From Phycisphaerae bacterium (GTDB taxonomy: Bacteria > Planctomycetota > Phycisphaerae > SM23-33): a stretch of DNA of 11,480 bases. The notes beneath the pieces were generated by a model. It was not told the DNA's origin. It searched no databases and saw only the letters and a program-made list of their open reading frames with translations. Where the stretch lies: NCBI GenBank assembly GCA_030754715.1, contig JASLZV010000023.1, forward strand, positions 1 through 11,480. The letters run 5' to 3'. The translations under genes and the position numbers were made by a program. Positions 3,073 to 11,447 of this stretch are shown one piece after another (position 1 is the first letter of the stretch; every line of letters starts with the position of its first letter).

Positions 3073-4683
3073 TTAGTAGGCAGGCAATGCTTCTGGCTCT
3101 AAATCGTCTGGATATAAAACCTGTGGCGGTGAGGCTTTTATGTCATAAATTCGTGACATCGCATCCATCATGTCAACGTGTACCGCAGGGAATAAGTTGT
3201 ACTCGTTATCAAGCATCTTCTGCGTAACGTCATAAGGCCGTCCAGTCTCATCAACCTGTCTAATCGCTTTAACAATCAGTGAGGCGTCTCCCATTTCAAA
3301 TGCTTGCCGTTGCCTCTTTGTTACGTCTTTAGATGACGGGGCCAAGAAGAAGCGCCAGTTCTCAAAGTCAGGCTGTAGTCTCTGAACGCGATCCCGTTTA
3401 GAACCCGGCCCTTCTCTCGGCCACGCCAATTCCTCTATAGGGAAGTAATAATTCTCGATCTTCATCATTTCAGTGAAATGTTCGATATCAGAATCCTTCC
3501 CATACCGTTCATAGCCGACCTTCACGGTCTGCACTCCCGGTTGCTTTATCCACTTTTGGCGTATTTTTTTTACGGATAGCCACCGATCTTTTAGGTTCAT
3601 CCGGTGGCAGTACCCATCCAAAAGGTACTTATTAGATGCGTGATCCACGCCAATTACGGCGATAGCCGTTCTGTCTGAACTTTGCTTTTTGGAGTGGGCG
3701 GGATCACACAAAATATAAACATTCAAGATGCGCGGTCTGATCTCCACCCGCCTGATCCACTCTGGATCGAAGACTTGATCAGAACCCGCGATTGGATTTT
3801 GTAACATCTGGCAGGCTAGAACGTATTGCCCCATAGATGTTTTTTTCTTATCCCATTCTGGTTGCGAAAGCAGTACGGGTACACCGTCGGGAGTACCGCT
3901 TTCTGTGGCCGGATATATGCGCGTTTCCGTGCCACGATCTATCAACTCTCGGTAAGTATCCGCGTAGTGATATCGCGTACCGATATACCATTCTCTGTTT
4001 GCCCCGCCTGCCAAGTTTTGACTAAGGTCGAGCGATTCTGTTGTCTTGGCTATCTGGTCTGGCGTGTTGACCGAATCCCTAGTGACAACATCGTCGTATA
4101 TTCTTAAATCGTAGTGACGGGATATGGGCTGTCCATCCACCAAACCCCATGCTTCTACTGTCGCCTCTTTGGGGTTGGCGGTTCGCTTAACAATGATCCC
4201 GGCGTCTTCCGACCACTGCGGAGAATCCTGTCTGGGGTTCTGGTAACAGATGTCTGGGAATAATTCACGCAGAAATTCATTAACCTCGAATTCGCGTTTT
4301 ATCTGCTTTAAGAATCCCTTTGCGATAGGCCGCGTGTGCGAAAATATACCTATCGTAGTATTCGGGTTCCGTAGAACCTCTTGTATCGTCCCCGCGTAGG
4401 TAATAATCGTTGACTTGTAATGGCCCCTAGCCCACAGGTCTAAGCGCCCATCCGAGCCTTTCTCAACCTCTCTGCATCTATCGTACAACCAAGGGTGTAC
4501 CGCGTCTTTGCGGTTAAGCAGAACAACCAACAGGAACCAACGGTCAATTTTTGCAAGTTCCCGTATAAAGACCTTATGGGCCTTGGATGAAAGAAGTTTT
4601 TTATAAAAATCCCCACACTGTTGCAGTGAGGCAGAGGGAAGAAAGTTTTCAGCATGTTCCCTAAATTCCGCTAGGTCAGGCAT
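3073..4683 (-). CDS. Terminase large subunit (packaging ATPase and nuclease)
   Basis: The 536-aa protein carries both terminase domains in order. In the ATPase half, a variant Walker A RGHYKST sits at residues 86-92, a Walker B LRIYDDVV with acidic pair D197/D198, and a coupling-type segment GTRYHYADTY at 235-244. In the RNase H-like nuclease half, D327 lies in ILCDPAHS, E392 in GYERYG, and D504/D507 in HVDMMDAMSR, which fits the usual acidic metal-binding triad. The enzyme drives DNA into the procapsid and cuts concatemers, docked on the portal encoded two kilobases downstream. The length is normal for the family. The ATG at 4683 overlaps the previous gene by 8 bases and lacks a clear ribosome site, so coupling is likely. 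Confidence 0.95.
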   Translation of the reverse strand: MPDLAEFREHAENFLPSASLQQCGDFYKKLLSSKAHKVFIRELAKIDRWFLLVVLLNRKDAVHPWLYDRCREVEKGSDGRLDLWARGHYKSTIITYAGTIQEVLRNPNTTIGIFSHTRPIAKGFLKQIKREFEVNEFLRELFPDICYQNPRQDSPQWSEDAGIIVKRTANPKEATVEAWGLVDGQPISRHYDLRIYDDVVTRDSVNTPDQIAKTTESLDLSQNLAGGANREWYIGTRYHYADTYRELIDRGTETRIYPATESGTPDGVPVLLSQPEWDKKKTSMGQYVLACQMLQNPIAGSDQVFDPEWIRRVEIRPRILNVYILCDPAHSKKQSSDRTAIAVIGVDHASNKYLLDGYCHRMNLKDRWLSVKKIRQKWIKQPGVQTVKVGYERYGKDSDIEHFTEMMKIENYYFPIEELAWPREGPGSKRDRVQRLQPDFENWRFFLAPSSKDVTKRQRQAFEMGDASLIVKAIRQVDETGRPYDVTQKMLDNEYNLFPAVHVDMMDAMSRIYDIKASPPQVLYPDDLEPEALPAY

Positions 4684-6558: not shown

Positions 6559-6600
6559 TGTCTGTCCATAAAAGCGCTTGGCTCAAAGCAAATGAAAAGT

Positions 6601-6629
6601 TGTCTGAGAGGGATTCTCTGGTTATACCA
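6601..6629 (+). promoter_or_regulatory. Weak sigma70-like promoter candidate reading rightward
   Basis: TTGTCT (6601-6606) and TATACC (6624-6629) are separated by 17 bases, matching four of six consensus bases each. If used, it would transcribe the structured non-coding region and then the rightward operon. It is supported by position and spacing only. Confidence 0.25.
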
Positions 6630-6860
6630 ATGGAGTGGCTAAACCCGCATGCCCCCGCCGCAACCGTCGGTTATCACCCGAAAACGGTCAGCCATGCATA
6701 CACGCGCTCCCCTCCTCTGGTCAGCGAAGTTACGCCGCCGTGTTGGCCTGCGGATTAATAGTCTGCTGTCCCTTCAGTGATTGCCGGGGTCGCAAGCACA
6801 GGTGTGCATTAGTTGTCAAGGAATCCCTTCCACGCGCCCCCCCTTCACGCGCACCCCTCG

Positions 6861-6904
6861 CGGCCCTCGGCCCTCGGCCCTGCCTGCCTGCCTGCCTGCC
6901 TGCC
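6861..6904. repeat. Adjacent short tandem repeats (CGGCCCT x3, TGCC x6)
   Basis: Three perfect 7-base copies of CGGCCCT (6861-6881) run directly into six perfect copies of TGCC (6881-6904). They sit in the C-rich non-coding region. Such short repeats vary in copy number by polymerase slippage. No function is evident. Confidence 0.85.
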
Positions 6905-7195
6905 CCGCTGTTGTCCGGCACTAGGTCTCCCCGACCCATGGGCCATAACGGAATTCTCCCCGCCTCAGTCAGGGGACTGGCCTGCCGTCTTACCCAAGCG
7001 CTTCTCAGGCTCCCATTCCCCCCTAGCACTGGGTAGGTGCCTGTCCCTTCTCCTGTCCCACACAGGCGCTTGTAAGGCCCGTCCGATGGCCTTCCGCCAG
7101 TCCTCCCATATCCCCCCCCCTGCTGAGTCCAATCAGGCGTCTGCCTGCGGTGTTTTGTTCCCGCCCTGATCATCTGCTGATAAGGTCGGTTAGGT

Positions 7196-7589
7196 GCCGA
7201 AAGGTGTTGAGAATGGTGTAGGGTTCAGGCATAATGCGCCCTACGGGGGAGGTATTCCCCCACGGGGCAGGCTCAGTGTCCCCGTTGTCTGAAAGGCGGA
7301 CTGGCCCCCGAGAGGAGGCCGCTCCAGTTCCTGAGTCGCGCCGCAACCGATGCGGACACGCCCGAGACAAGTTTGGCATGGGCGTCACCGACCGAGGTGC
7401 ATCTGGTCAGGAATAGATACGCGGAGCCAAGCGAGATACGTAGGCGACCCCCTTCTTTCTGTCTACTGATCATGGTTGATGCACGGGTCACGGGCTTTGC
7501 CCCTCGCCTGACACAAGCAGGGGATTGTGGATTCATCGCTGAAGGCTCACGTAACGAGCCTTGAGCGATGCAACCATCAACACACCATT
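7196..7589 (+). ncRNA. Candidate large structured RNA or structured 5' leader
   Basis: Three perfect hairpins abut with no spacer: 7218-7244 (GTAGGG/CCCTAC), 7245-7261 (GGGGGA/TCCCCC) and 7262-7285 (ACGGGG/CCCCGT). Next come 7303-7320 (GGCCCCC, loop GAGA, GGAGGCC, one mismatch), 7341-7355 (CCGCA/TGCGG), 7359-7384 (CGCCC/GGGCG), 7440-7466 (GTAGGC/GTCTAC with a G-U pair), 7512-7529 (CACAA/TTGTG) and 7534-7570. AATGGT at 7212-7217 can pair with ACCATT at 7584-7589 to close the whole array. The loops GAGA and GAAA (7199-7202, CC/GG closed) and the G-U pair only make sense on the plus strand. Large phage RNAs such as GOLLD and ROOL are known, but I cannot match this to any family. The ends are estimates. 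Confidence 0.42.
7534..7570 (+). promoter_or_regulatory. 14-bp stem-loop in the leader of the rightward operon
   Basis: CATCGCT (7534-7540) pairs with AGCGATG (7564-7570), and AAGGCTC (7542-7548) pairs with GAGCCTT (7556-7562). A single G-G mismatch separates them and the loop is ACGTAAC. No T-run follows, so it is not a standard terminator. It ends 33 bases before the ATG at 7604, so it may affect translation or RNA stability of the operon. Confidence 0.6.
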
Positions 7590-7603
7590 AACTAGGAGAT
7601 TAA

Positions 7604-7858
7604 ATGAACGTCCGACAAGACATCATCAGCCTCACTCAGTTCTATCGCAACATGAGGCATCCTTACTCTGTGACATGGAATGGCCGTGCCTACCATGACA
7701 CCGACACTAACGACCTTGTCAATCAGGTCATCGACACCGAGTTGGAATTCGTTGGGATCGCGATCAGAAAGTTGGACGCATTCAACGAAGACCATGCAGG
7801 CGAGTTGCAAGAGTTGCTGTTCTACCGCGACTACCTGTCCAACGGTCTGCCTCAGTAG
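7604..7858 (+). CDS. Hypothetical protein, 84 aa, first gene of the AAA+/VWA operon
   Basis: The start is fixed by AGGAG five bases before ATG. The 84-aa product begins MNVRQDIISLTQFYRNMRHP, has a short aromatic and polar segment (YSVTWNGRAYHD), then two acidic helices over residues about 37-80 (NDLVNQVIDTELEFVGIAIR and ELQELLFYRDYL). It has no export signal or membrane helix. It lies 37 bases before the ATPase gene and is surely co-transcribed. Unlike the three genes after it, it lacks the CTGCGAGG leader, which suggests separate translational control. The family is not recognised. Confidence 0.8.
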   Translation: MNVRQDIISLTQFYRNMRHPYSVTWNGRAYHDTDTNDLVNQVIDTELEFVGIAIRKLDAFNEDHAGELQELLFYRDYLSNGLPQ

Positions 7859-7881: not shown

Positions 7882-7889
7882 CTGCGAGG
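7882..7889 (+). promoter_or_regulatory. Shared CTGCGAGG leader, copy 1 (ATPase gene)
   Basis: CTGCGAGG followed by AAAATC and then ATG at 7896. The GAGGA part is the ribosome site and the CTGC before it is also conserved in copies 2 and 3. A pyrimidine-rich stretch precedes it. This fixes the start at 7896 rather than any upstream ATG in the same frame. Confidence 0.7.
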
Positions 7890-7895
7890 AAAATC

Positions 7896-8969
7896 ATGCA
7901 AACATCATTCGGCGAGATCGCGCCTGCTGTCGATCACAATCAACTGACACGTCTAATCAAACAGTGTGTCACTGGCCATCAACCACTCATGGTCTGGGGC
8001 TTGCCCGGACTAGGCAAGACTGACAATGTCAGCGACACCATGACAGCGCTTGGATACAAGGTCATTGTCGTTTACGCATCTGACTACGATGCGGTCGATG
8101 CCAAGGGTATGCCTTACAACTCTGACGGTGTTACATCTTACGCACGTCCACCGTGGTTCCCTTCGGTTGGCTGTGGCAAGGTTGTTATCTTTCTCGATGA
8201 GATTGTGCAGGCACCACAGCCTGTCCAAGTCTGTTTCTCCCGCCTTGCTAAAGAGGGCGTGATCGGCGATCTCACACTACCCAATGGAGACGGCGATGAG
8301 TGCATCGTCATTGCGGCAGGCAATCAGCACACCGCTCGTGCAGGGTCACACCGTATGCCTACGCACCTCGCTGATCGGTTCGCGCACTGTGAACTAGTTC
8401 CCAACCGTGACTTGTTCATTGACTGGGCGCGGTCGCATGACATTGATGAGCGCGTGCCTGCCTTCTTGCAGTTCAAGCCTGACTGCTTCTATGACTTCGA
8501 CGCCAAGCGTCAGGAGTATGCGTATCCGACGGCGCGGTCATGGGCCAAGGTGTCCGACCTTATCTCTGATCTGGCGTCCGACGATGTGTCGATGTTGGAA
8601 CTGACTGTCGGTGCCAAAGTTGGTCAGGGCGTAGGCCGGGACTTCGCCTCTTTCTGTGCGACGCTCGACAGCATCCCCGACGCAACGGCTATTGCTCTTG
8701 GTCAAGGTCAGGCCGACGTGCCCGAGAATCTTGGTCTGCTGTACACCTTGACTGTCGCACTTGCCCGTCGCACTCTTGACGATGCAAGCGCTGAAAATAT
8801 CTGGGCCTACCTCAGCCTCGTGCCAGAAGAGTTTCAGATTTTCTGGCTCAAGGATTGCGAGGCCATGTTGGCCAACCCCAATGTCGAGTACGACTACGAC
8901 CTGAGTCAAGCGCCCGTGTTCGCTGAGATTGCACAGCGTCTGGCAGGCGCACTTGGGATCACCTCTTAA
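7896..8969 (+). CDS. MoxR/CobS-like AAA+ ATPase
   Basis: The 357-aa product is a compact AAA+ (AAA_5-type) ATPase. Walker A GLPGLGKT is at residues 35-42, Walker B VVIFLDEI at 96-103 (D101, E102), sensor 1 N143 in IVIAAGNQ, and a probable arginine finger R161 in HLADRFAHCEL. A sensor-2-like arginine R214 lies in YPTARSW. A later GAKVGQGVGRDF segment (239-250) recalls phage members of this group. Such ATPases form hexamers and work with VWA-domain partners, as MoxR and cobaltochelatase CobS do. A VWA protein is encoded two genes downstream, so a shared machine is likely. The frame stays open upstream to 7680, but that part overlaps the 84-aa gene and has no ribosome site. The substrate is unknown. 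Confidence 0.9.
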   Translation: MQTSFGEIAPAVDHNQLTRLIKQCVTGHQPLMVWGLPGLGKTDNVSDTMTALGYKVIVVYASDYDAVDAKGMPYNSDGVTSYARPPWFPSVGCGKVVIFLDEIVQAPQPVQVCFSRLAKEGVIGDLTLPNGDGDECIVIAAGNQHTARAGSHRMPTHLADRFAHCELVPNRDLFIDWARSHDIDERVPAFLQFKPDCFYDFDAKRQEYAYPTARSWAKVSDLISDLASDDVSMLELTVGAKVGQGVGRDFASFCATLDSIPDATAIALGQGQADVPENLGLLYTLTVALARRTLDDASAENIWAYLSLVPEEFQIFWLKDCEAMLANPNVEYDYDLSQAPVFAEIAQRLAGALGITS

Positions 8970-9033: not shown

Positions 9034-9041
9034 CTGCGAGG
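9034..9041 (+). promoter_or_regulatory. Shared CTGCGAGG leader, copy 2 (305-aa gene)
   Basis: CTGCGAGG then TTAATC and ATG at 9048, with the same six-base gap as copy 1. It decides the start of the 305-aa gene over an upstream ATG at 9009, which has no site. Confidence 0.7.
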
Positions 9042-10018: not shown

Positions 10019-10026
10019 CTGCGAGG
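10019..10026 (+). promoter_or_regulatory. Shared CTGCGAGG leader, copy 3 (metallopeptidase/VWA gene)
   Basis: CTGCGAGG then AAAATTCTT and ATG at 10036, with a gap of nine bases instead of six. A pyrimidine-rich stretch again precedes it. It sets the start well downstream of earlier ATGs in the same frame. Confidence 0.65.
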
Positions 10027-10035
10027 AAAATTCTT

Positions 10036-10749
10036 ATGCAAACCCCATTAGATTTTATGCGGTCTGTTCGTTCGATTATGTTGTTGCAACCTCAGACCCG
10101 GTACATAGGTAGCAACGTCATGCTGTTGGAGTTGATCGAGTCCAACGATATTGACACTGCCTGCACCAACGGCAAGGTTATTAAGTTCAACCCTGAGTTT
10201 GTCTCTCAGTTAACCAAGCGCCAAGGCATCTTCCTGTTAGCGCATGAGGTCATGCACTGCATCCTCAAGCACCCTTGGCGTCGCGGTGGACGTGATCCTA
10301 AACTCTGGAACATCGCCTGCGACTTCGTTATCAATGGTCACCTGATCATCATGGGTCTTGGCGAGTTCATCACCGACGGCCTGCATGACGAGCAGTACAA
10401 TGGCATGAGCGCTGAACGTGTCTACGCCTTGCGTATGCTCGAAGACGATCCCCAGTCAGACGATCCCCAGTCAGGCGACGAGTCAGGCGATCCTCAGTCA
10501 GGCGATCCTCAGTCAGGCGATCCTCAGTCAGGCGATCCTCAGTCAGGCGATCCTCAGTCAGGCGACGAGTCAGGCGAACAGTCAGGCGACGATCAGTCAG
10601 ACGATCAGTCAGGGACGATCAGTCAGACGATCAGTCAGGCGATGATCAGCAAGGCGGCGGTAGCGGCGACGGTGTGCCGACGTTTGAAGAGGCCATGCAG
10701 TCTGGTATCGGCGGTGTTGAAGACGCCCCCGCTGATGAGCCTGAGTTAG
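10036..10749 (+). CDS. HExxH metallopeptidase-like domain protein (DUF2201 N-terminal type), frameshifted before its VWA half
   Basis: Read from ATG at 10036, residues about 55-107 hold a zinc-peptidase-like signature: HEVMH at 70-74, followed by WNIACDFVIN (91-100) with D96 as a likely third ligand. This matches the putative metallopeptidase domain found at the start of DUF2201 proteins. An acidic DPQSG repeat linker follows from about residue 138. After codon 193 (GGG, 10612-10614) the frame is wrong: the remaining 44 codons give an unrelated basic tail that stops at 10749. The real continuation is in the frame starting at 10614, which encodes the VWA domain. The intact protein would be about 450 aa. 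As it stands, only the N-terminal domain and linker would be made from this start. Confidence 0.82.
   Translation: MQTPLDFMRSVRSIMLLQPQTRYIGSNVMLLELIESNDIDTACTNGKVIKFNPEFVSQLTKRQGIFLLAHEVMHCILKHPWRRGGRDPKLWNIACDFVINGHLIIMGLGEFITDGLHDEQYNGMSAERVYALRMLEDDPQSDDPQSGDESGDPQSGDPQSGDPQSGDPQSGDPQSGDESGEQSGDDQSDDQSGTISQTISQAMISKAAVAATVCRRLKRPCSLVSAVLKTPPLMSLS
10486..10560 (+). repeat. Five perfect 15-bp tandem repeats encoding GDPQS
   Basis: GGCGATCCTCAGTCA is repeated five times without change, with degenerate copies on both sides from about 10447. It encodes an acidic flexible linker between the metallopeptidase-like and VWA domains. Identical copies at the DNA level suggest recent expansion by slippage or recombination. 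Confidence 0.93.
10585..10637 (+). repeat. Two 26/27-bp tandem copies, the second missing one C
   Basis: The first copy (10585-10611) starts GGCGACGATCAG. The second (10612-10637) is identical except that GGC has become GG. This single missing base is what throws the gene out of frame. Confidence 0.9.
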
Positions 10750-11387
10750 AGCGTGAGTGGGATAGAAATATCATGGTCACCACTCAGCAGGCGAAAGACT
10801 CCGGCACCCTGCCGGGTAACGTCGCGCAGGCAATCGACAAACGCAACGAGTCAGCGATCAGTTGGCAAGACCAGTTGAACGATCTCATGTCTGGTATCGG
10901 CTCACTGTCTGAGCAGTCATGGGCCAAAAAGAATCGGCGCTTTGAAGAGTACCTTCCCGGCATCGAGACTCGCGGTCTGGGTCACGTCGTTATCGGCACT
11001 GACACAAGCGGTTCGATGGATAAGTCTGAACTGGAACGTGCGGTGTCAGAAACGATGGAAGTCTGTGACATCTATTCGCCTGACCTGACGTTCATTCCCT
11101 GCGACAGTCGGATCGATGATGATACGGTTCAGCAGTTTGAATCGGGGTGCTACCCCGACGATGCAAGTGAGTTCAACTTGCATGGCGGTGGGGGTACTGA
11201 CCCCAAACCTGTCTTTGATTGGTGCGCTGAAAACGGTGAGCCTGACGTGATGATCTTCTTCACTGATGGGTACGTTTACAAATGGCCAGAAGACCCCGGC
11301 TACCCCGTGGTCTGGGCCTTCACCTCACCTGTCACAAAACACAACCCGCCTGCACCTTTTGGCACTGTGATCGAGTGCTGTATCTGA
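10674..11387 (+). CDS. VWA-domain protein (DUF2201/CobT-like C-terminal half), separated by frameshift
   Basis: The frame is open from 10614 to 11387. The listed start is a GTG at 10674 with only a weak site, so the true start is probably the upstream ATG at 10036 with a corrected frame. In GTG numbering, a VWA domain covers about residues 103-225 and has a complete metal-ion MIDAS: DTSGS at 110-114, T175 in GGGGTDPKPVF, and D198 in FFTDGY. An acidic helical segment (about 20-95) precedes it. VWA domains bind partners through a coordinated Mg, and CobT- and MoxR-associated VWA proteins dock on AAA+ hexamers. The ATPase at 7896-8969 is the expected partner. If the frameshift is real, the VWA half may be translated poorly or not at all. 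Confidence 0.85.
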   Translation: MPTFEEAMQSGIGGVEDAPADEPELEREWDRNIMVTTQQAKDSGTLPGNVAQAIDKRNESAISWQDQLNDLMSGIGSLSEQSWAKKNRRFEEYLPGIETRGLGHVVIGTDTSGSMDKSELERAVSETMEVCDIYSPDLTFIPCDSRIDDDTVQQFESGCYPDDASEFNLHGGGGTDPKPVFDWCAENGEPDVMIFFTDGYVYKWPEDPGYPVVWAFTSPVTKHNPPAPFGTVIECCI

Positions 11388-11396
11388 TCATCGCAG

Positions 11397-11447
11397 AGGT
11401 CGTTGGCCCCCCGACCTTAACTGGGGGCCGCATCAGCAACACTGATG
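11397..11447 (+). promoter_or_regulatory. Potential H-type pseudoknot plus hairpin after the VWA gene
   Basis: AGGTCG (11397-11402) pairs with CGACCT (11412-11417), while GGCCCCC (11405-11411) pairs with GGGGGCC (11423-11429). The two stems interlock with a 2-base first loop, no junction base and a 5-base last loop, which is sterically reasonable for an H-type pseudoknot. A 6-bp hairpin (CATCAG/CTGATG, 11431-11447) follows. No T-run is present. It may stabilise the mRNA end or control the next gene, which lies beyond the window. Confidence 0.5.

Follow-up and report, generated by a model that had tools for sequence, protein, structure and literature searches.

A probable structured RNA at the head of a phage operon

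The gap between the two gene arms of a phage contig appears, from its sequence, to hold a new family of phage RNA, a promoter-proximal leader of ~330 nucleotides (nt). At the level of sequence comparison, the family is shown by homologues in two other phages, by conserved helices, by its placement between a promoter-like site and a gene start, and by near-identical phages that differ at this very point. We infer transcription from a promoter at 7207–7235, membership of an early operon, and action in cis. That a real structured RNA lies here is, judged from the sequences, very probable, and the decisive support for it is comparative.

The window, that is, the whole 11,480-nt stretch of DNA analysed here, is a single contig (C155) from an incomplete metagenome-assembled genome of 498 contigs, and its DNA is that of a phage. 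The left arm, on the minus strand, carries portal and large terminase genes; the right arm, on the plus strand, consists of an 84-residue gene, a MoxR-like AAA+ ATPase, one unassigned gene, and a VWA/DUF2201 gene. The gap between the arms (6559–7603) is without a convincing gene, and the GC skew shifts where the two transcription arms meet, next to the RNA. The first gene 3′ of the RNA (7604–7858, plus strand) is an open reading frame of 84 amino acids for which a search for relatives returned 12 proteins, itself counted, and Pfam and PHROG searches returned no match. It is preceded by a ribosome-binding site, AGGAG (7594–7598, plus strand), and followed by the AAA+ ATPase (7896–8969, plus strand), which matches phrog_1297 (E 7.5e-66) and has no Pfam match at 0.001. 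Four IMG/VR fragments (L012, L049, L050, and L051) are 99.77–99.98% identical to portions of the left arm, and a covariance model search found the RNA absent from all four.

Homologues in two other phages

A terminase search gave 42 related loci, including L034, whose terminase is 82% identical to that of the window. At the RNA, L034 and the window share two aligned blocks, of 134 and 76 bases, with 75–76% identity, and the L034 copy lies directly 5′ of an AAA+ gene whose product is 47% identical over 155 residues to the window AAA+ protein. A pattern built on the blocks common to these two sequences led to L057, an IMG/VR contig of 4,990 bases in which none of the window proteins has a match. 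Upstream of its RNA, L057 encodes an HTH_17 protein, a Cas4-like nuclease, and, farther away, an AAA_24 ATPase resembling Sak4; a small unassigned gene lies downstream. The RNA copy was matched by blastn with E-values, relative to small local sets, of 6e-20 for L034 and 1e-34 for L057. Across a core of 188 bases, identities are 140/178 between window and L034, 152/188 between window and L057, and 142/186 between L034 and L057 (76–81%), which places the three copies about equally far from one another. The RNA is known from these three different uncultured phages, a family of three members.

A covariance model of 139 positions (R1), whose core is helix P3, was searched against 95 loci and the window (L046 omitted) and matched three of the 96 sources, namely the window, L034, and L057. 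Nothing convincing came from 32 loci (best E 0.15), and two of 18 whole records matched, again L034 and L057. In overlapping sets of 397 genomes from the class, 392 from the phylum, 35 from the family, and 38 from the order, the first two searched with stricter filters, the sole match was the window's own genome, which holds no further copy elsewhere. The RNA family is rare within the data searched. Loci from the pattern scan beyond L034 and L057 were rejected by a profile search (111 loci, omitting L001 and L002 from the window's own genome and L054, a duplicate of L034) and by the model searches (95 and 32 loci); six pattern-scan loci, with exact spacing in five and near spacing in one, were without the RNA by model search.

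The preliminary description had proposed an undescribed structured RNA; a structured RNA foreign to Rfam is supported by the two homologues with their compensatory changes and by cmscan. At the gathering level, cmscan found no match at the RNA in the window or L034, and at a permissive level none in the window, L057, or L054; the group I intron model (Intron_gpI) had no match at the RNA in the window, L034, or L057. A mir-3070 match at 7612–7642 (E 4.4) was discarded as chance. Against 50,697 phage records, the three copies found no relatives by blastn, with short matches only at E ~5–6, and a plasmid search with the window copy returned three records, the best at E 3e-3 over 52 bases within a dehydrogenase gene. 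The titles among the matches listed in an open-access literature search include no such RNA, a scope that leaves room for prior publication.

The AAA+ gene was also used as a handle. The window sequence as a single query found no relative in viral contigs; a search with an AAA+ alignment found six distant loci, with 48–97 bases ahead of the gene; genome contigs gave none. The AAA+ tally came to 4 of 60 genomes, the window's own and three weak matches.

Conserved architecture of the RNA

Ten helices fit all three copies, with 162 of 165 cells in standard pairs, counts that are biased toward these helices since they were placed by hand with the sequences in view; the outer part of P5 (P5a) entered the count for the window and L034 alone. 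Two-sided compensated changes occur in 17 of the 57 pairs, ten of them outside P5. When the 3′ strands were shifted 1–6 bases in either direction, a control that uses the same choice of helices, 51–71 paired cells and 0–3 compensated pairs were left.

The RNA opens with a pseudoknot domain (7263–7337, plus strand, as are all elements below) whose two interlocking stems are both kept via two-sided changes across the three sequences. Stem PK1 (7263–7267 with 7280–7284) reads CGGGG/CCCCG in the window, CCGG/CCGG in L034, and ACCGG/CCGGT in L057, and stem PK2 (7270–7276 with 7331–7337) reads CTCAG/CTGAG, CCAG/CTGG, and CCTAG/CTAGG, respectively, each lengthened by G-U or G-C; L034 has one non-pair per stem. 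A hairpin reported earlier at 7263–7284 is real and corresponds to PK1. Between the strands of PK2, the window carries an insertion (~7285–7330) with a GAGA-looped hairpin that is missing in both relatives, so the GAGA loop at 7310–7313, once offered as proof of the strand, lies in a part that neither of them has. The window has one other insertion, at 7245–7261, and L034 has one, in P3, whose bases include another GGAGCCAAAGG-like block that may be a duplicate of an internal hairpin.

Helix P2 (7341–7344 with 7352–7355; loop AACCGAT) is invariant, and P2b (7358–7363 with 7380–7385) is ACGCCC/GGGCGT in the window and ACCGTC/GGCGGT in both relatives. The long-range helix P3 is present in all three copies and is made of three segments (7390–7393 with 7486–7489, 7397–7403 with 7478–7484, and 7404–7408 with 7468–7472). 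Its region (7389–7490) is mostly invariant, with GTGCATC/GATGCAC at the center, a C-A non-pair at 7389/7490 in the window, and one compensated pair in P3c; being nearly invariant, P3 says little by itself. Hairpin P4 (7500–7523) pairs CCCCT with AGGGG, with a T-A to C-G change in L057, and has a conserved loop ending in GACACAAGC. Hairpin P5 (7535–7540 with 7564–7569 and 7542–7548 with 7556–7562) varies widely in sequence and is kept as a hairpin; it is the final element before the ribosome-binding site and is not followed by a T run. PK2, P2, P2b, P3, P4, and P5 were all absent from the preliminary description, whose dense array of abutting hairpins gives way to a conserved anatomy of pseudoknot, long-range helix, and few hairpins.

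An alternative partner for the 5′ pseudoknot strand is the P4 loop, through CAGGC/GCCTG in the window and CGGGCG/CGCCCG in L034, with one pair broken in L057. RNAalifold favors this pairing over the pseudoknot, and the prediction could be a second state or a method error.

Promoter-like sites, boundaries, and the genes behind the RNA

A sigma-70-like promoter, TTGAGA-17-CATAAT (7207–7235, plus strand), matches 10 of 12 consensus bases and has a predicted start at ~7241–7243. It is the sole plus-strand position in the window to reach this score, which one other position reaches on the minus strand. By our own scoring, promoter-like sites also lie 5′ of the RNA in L034 (TTGACA-17-CAGATT, 9/12) and L057 (TTGCAT-17-TATACT, 8/12), giving a site on the same strand in three of three copies versus one of three by a stricter scanner, which asks for at least 4 of 6 bases per hexamer and lists the window site alone, with none before L034 or L057. 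Promoter-like sites show no surplus over the whole region (3 found versus 2.6 expected). The core starts 7–8 nt past the −10 hexamer in L034 and L057, and by analogy with this position the window RNA would start at ~7242. Given the promoter-like site just upstream and a gene start 28–36 nt downstream, we place the RNA at about 7242 to 7570, or ~330 nt.

These boundaries are narrower than the interval first proposed (7196–7589), within which the first hairpins and the closing helix run into the promoter and, with an RNA start at ~7242, would be promoter DNA. The hairpin at 7218–7242 includes the −10 hexamer of the top-scoring promoter-like site and is therefore probably promoter DNA rather than RNA; the arms of the suggested closing helix (7212–7217 with 7584–7589) are indeed complementary, but the 5′ arm falls within the promoter. 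A GAAA loop at 7199–7202, cited as evidence for the strand, lies 5′ of the predicted RNA start. The hairpin at 7245–7261 (GGGGG..CCCCC, plus strand), in the interval between promoter and core, belongs to the window alone and is missing from L034 and L057.

The distance from P5 to the start of the first gene is 34 bases in the window, 36 in L034, and 28 in L057, and the first genes differ: the 84-residue protein in the window, the AAA+ protein in L034, and another small protein in L057. The L057 gene frame is open back into the RNA as far as an ATG at 4431, and its start at 4539 is our choice, based on the ribosome-binding site. On the RNA strand, no terminator-like site was found inside the RNA or ahead of the gene in any of the three copies, and a terminator-like site at 7134–7147 sits 5′ of the promoter. 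Elsewhere on the plus strand of the window, the motif CTGCGAGG occurs three times (7882–7889, 9034–9041, and 10019–10026), each copy directly 5′ of a rightward gene, and not at all on the minus strand; in L033 and L034 it also precedes the first gene, and it looks, from these positions, like a common ribosome-binding context.

Folding energy and strand

The folding excess claimed for 7196–7589 is present (z −3.3), but it is equal on the minus strand and gone over the full gap 6559–7603 (z −0.6 on the plus and −0.5 on the minus strand). Slightly different limits give −3.6 and −2.9 (7160–7603) or −3.8 and −3.6 (7186–7603), and the core by itself (7264–7603) gives −2.5 and −1.3. The neighboring segment 6559–7160 scores +0.3 and −0.4, and seven 400-base control stretches range from +0.9 to −2.9 over both strands. 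The relatives are unremarkable, with −1.4 and −1.2 for L034 and −1.2 and −0.6 for L057. The excess in the window is modest and not strand-specific, and with both strands alike and the relatives unremarkable, we rejected folding stability by itself as proof of an RNA. RNAalifold on a MAFFT alignment (276 of 435 columns retained, namely the ones occupied in two or more sequences) gave energies below all 150 column shuffles, with z −4.0 on the plus and −4.75 on the minus strand; with scores about equal on both, energy does not tell the strand.

The plus strand is nonetheless supported by eight G-U cells within the conserved helices, by the promoter-like sites in three of three copies, and by the orientation of the downstream genes. 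The preliminary description had chosen the same strand on grounds that fall in non-conserved parts. Its G-U pair exists, although the partner of G7444 is U7462 and not 7461, and the helix that contains it has one mismatch in L057 and is lacking from L034 by alignment.

Exchange between near-identical phages

L034 has a close twin, L033, with 99.47% identity across 10,013 bases. In the reversed reading, the similarity ends at L034 base 15778, after the −35 element (from 15760) and before the −10 element of the L034 promoter-like site; the likeness thins over the final ~145 bases, with the first differences near the junction at 15634. Past base 15778, L034 has the RNA and the AAA+ gene, whereas L033 has a different leader and an ArdC-like antirestriction gene (PF08401 and PF18818; 10439–11443 in the reversed reading). 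The L033 leader was considered as a second RNA family and is unsupported (z +0.5). Two further phages of the same terminase group, L045 and L052, have terminases 82–83% identical and both carry AAA+ relatives. By the covariance model, the records of L033, L045, and L052 contain no copy of the RNA; those of L045 and L052 are fragments of 48 kb and 16 kb, and the RNA could still occur elsewhere in these two phages. With close relatives whose records lack it, the RNA is unlikely to be essential for packaging or replication. The pair L033 and L034, near-identical natural phages with and without the RNA, makes its effect testable.

Possible functions

A promoter-proximal position, different genes behind, and the missing terminator would suit an RNA whose target is the transcript it belongs to or the polymerase carrying it. 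Tentatively, and by analogy, we favor a cis-acting leader that modifies RNA polymerase, put-like in its working and unrelated to HK022 put. The RNA would begin ~20 nt 5′ of the pseudoknot, or nearly at it in the relatives, continue through the long-range helix and hairpins, and end ~34 nt ahead of the first start codon in a rightward operon that is probably early. The nascent RNA would fold on leaving the polymerase and either modify the elongation complex or bring a host factor to the polymerase, and the modified polymerase would read through the operon. Counting against antitermination, no terminator to be overcome stood out in the operon, with 3 terminator-like sites on both strands versus 3.7 expected.

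HK022 putL lies directly 3′ of the early promoter PL, and put elements, ~70 nt with two stem-loops, are described as active without dedicated protein factors behind early promoters (PMC9378689). As far as that account goes, the window RNA is alike in being a phage RNA behind a promoter-like site at the head of an operon, but at ~330 nt it is four to five times longer and has a pseudoknot and a long-range helix, a likeness of description only. A polymerase-modifying role, if real, would make it an RNA antiterminator of a far larger type.

A leader that controls the first gene through a small molecule or protein, as riboswitches and protein-binding leaders do, is a doubtful second reading. It would suit a conserved fold in a 5′ leader, with a sequence-conserved core 28–36 nt before the start codon in all three copies, and the pairing of the 5′ strand with the P4 loop that RNAalifold favors over the pseudoknot would provide two mutually exclusive states, although L057 disrupts one of the alternative pairs. 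The window RNA departs from riboswitches in the differing first genes of the three phages, in the lack of a terminator after the RNA or any other visible expression platform, and in having no Rfam match; single-sequence folds, inspected by eye, do not consistently mask the ribosome-binding site.

We think it rather unlikely that the RNA acts in trans, for example made early and freed by cleavage at P5 to serve as a decoy for a host or defence component or to inhibit it, its joining to the first mRNA then being incidental. A promoter-like site of its own, its occurrence in L057, a phage without a gene in common with the window, and the antirestriction gene ArdC in the same slot of the twin phage L033 would all fit, but it has no terminator of its own, is attached to a downstream gene in three of three copies, and has no known partner. 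In a more specific form, which we regard as improbable, the RNA would be a mobile early cassette that disables a host or defence component and shares its slot with ardC. Should the RNA counter host defence, it would join a barely explored class.

A replication element, either a preprimer transcript or an origin between the divergent arms, seems quite improbable. ColE1 RNA II is such a preprimer, the RNA adjoins the arm junction where the GC skew shifts, and in L057 it follows the Cas4-like nuclease gene, with the AAA_24 ATPase farther away; an essential origin, however, should not allow L033, L045, and L052 to be without a copy at the corresponding place. It is very improbable that the conserved sequence is not an RNA at all, being instead a palindromic DNA site for protein binding or recombination, a coding remnant, or chance: the folding excess is the same on both strands and one window frame is open across the core, but all frames of L034 and L057 are interrupted by stops, the eight G-U cells would be mismatches in the complementary strand, neither a pseudoknot nor a helix across ~100 bases is a feature of DNA sites, and the compensated changes far exceed those of slid registers.

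Comparison with large phage RNAs

GOLLD RNAs, many of them >800 nt and often near tRNAs, and ROOL RNAs, found in phages and prophages and containing pseudoknots, are both given as without known function in the source consulted (PMC12286853). The window RNA resembles GOLLD in being a large phage RNA and ROOL in being a phage RNA with a pseudoknot. Within what that source describes, it differs from GOLLD in its ~330 nt, its lack of an Rfam match, and the lack of a nearby tRNA, and from ROOL in its placement as a 5′ leader and in lacking both an Rfam match and a tRNA within the window. ARAGORN, run on the window alone, found 0 tRNAs. The likeness to GOLLD and ROOL suggested earlier is thus unsupported: Rfam has no match, the window lacks tRNA genes, and the size is well below 800 nt. 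Few large structured phage RNAs are known and their roles are mostly open; the present RNA is compact, immediately follows a promoter-like site, and has a pseudoknot kept by compensatory changes across phages without common genes.

Other features of the window and related contigs

The non-coding stretch at 6600–7170 is cytosine-rich, with C runs and 6.5 units of CCTG at 6879–6904, and is without folding excess; L040 and L015 likewise have G+C- or C-rich stretches close to their contig ends. L015, a relative phage, contains a group I intron at 11183–11404 (Rfam RF00028, 64.1 bits). L050 carries a terminase fragment 100% identical to that of the window plus a second terminase at 54%, and is likely a chimeric contig. 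The DUF2201_N and VWA gene of the window (10036–11387) has a frame change inside a tandem repeat (15-base unit, 10446–10649), which is either natural slippage or an assembly error; its counterpart in L045 is a single open frame.
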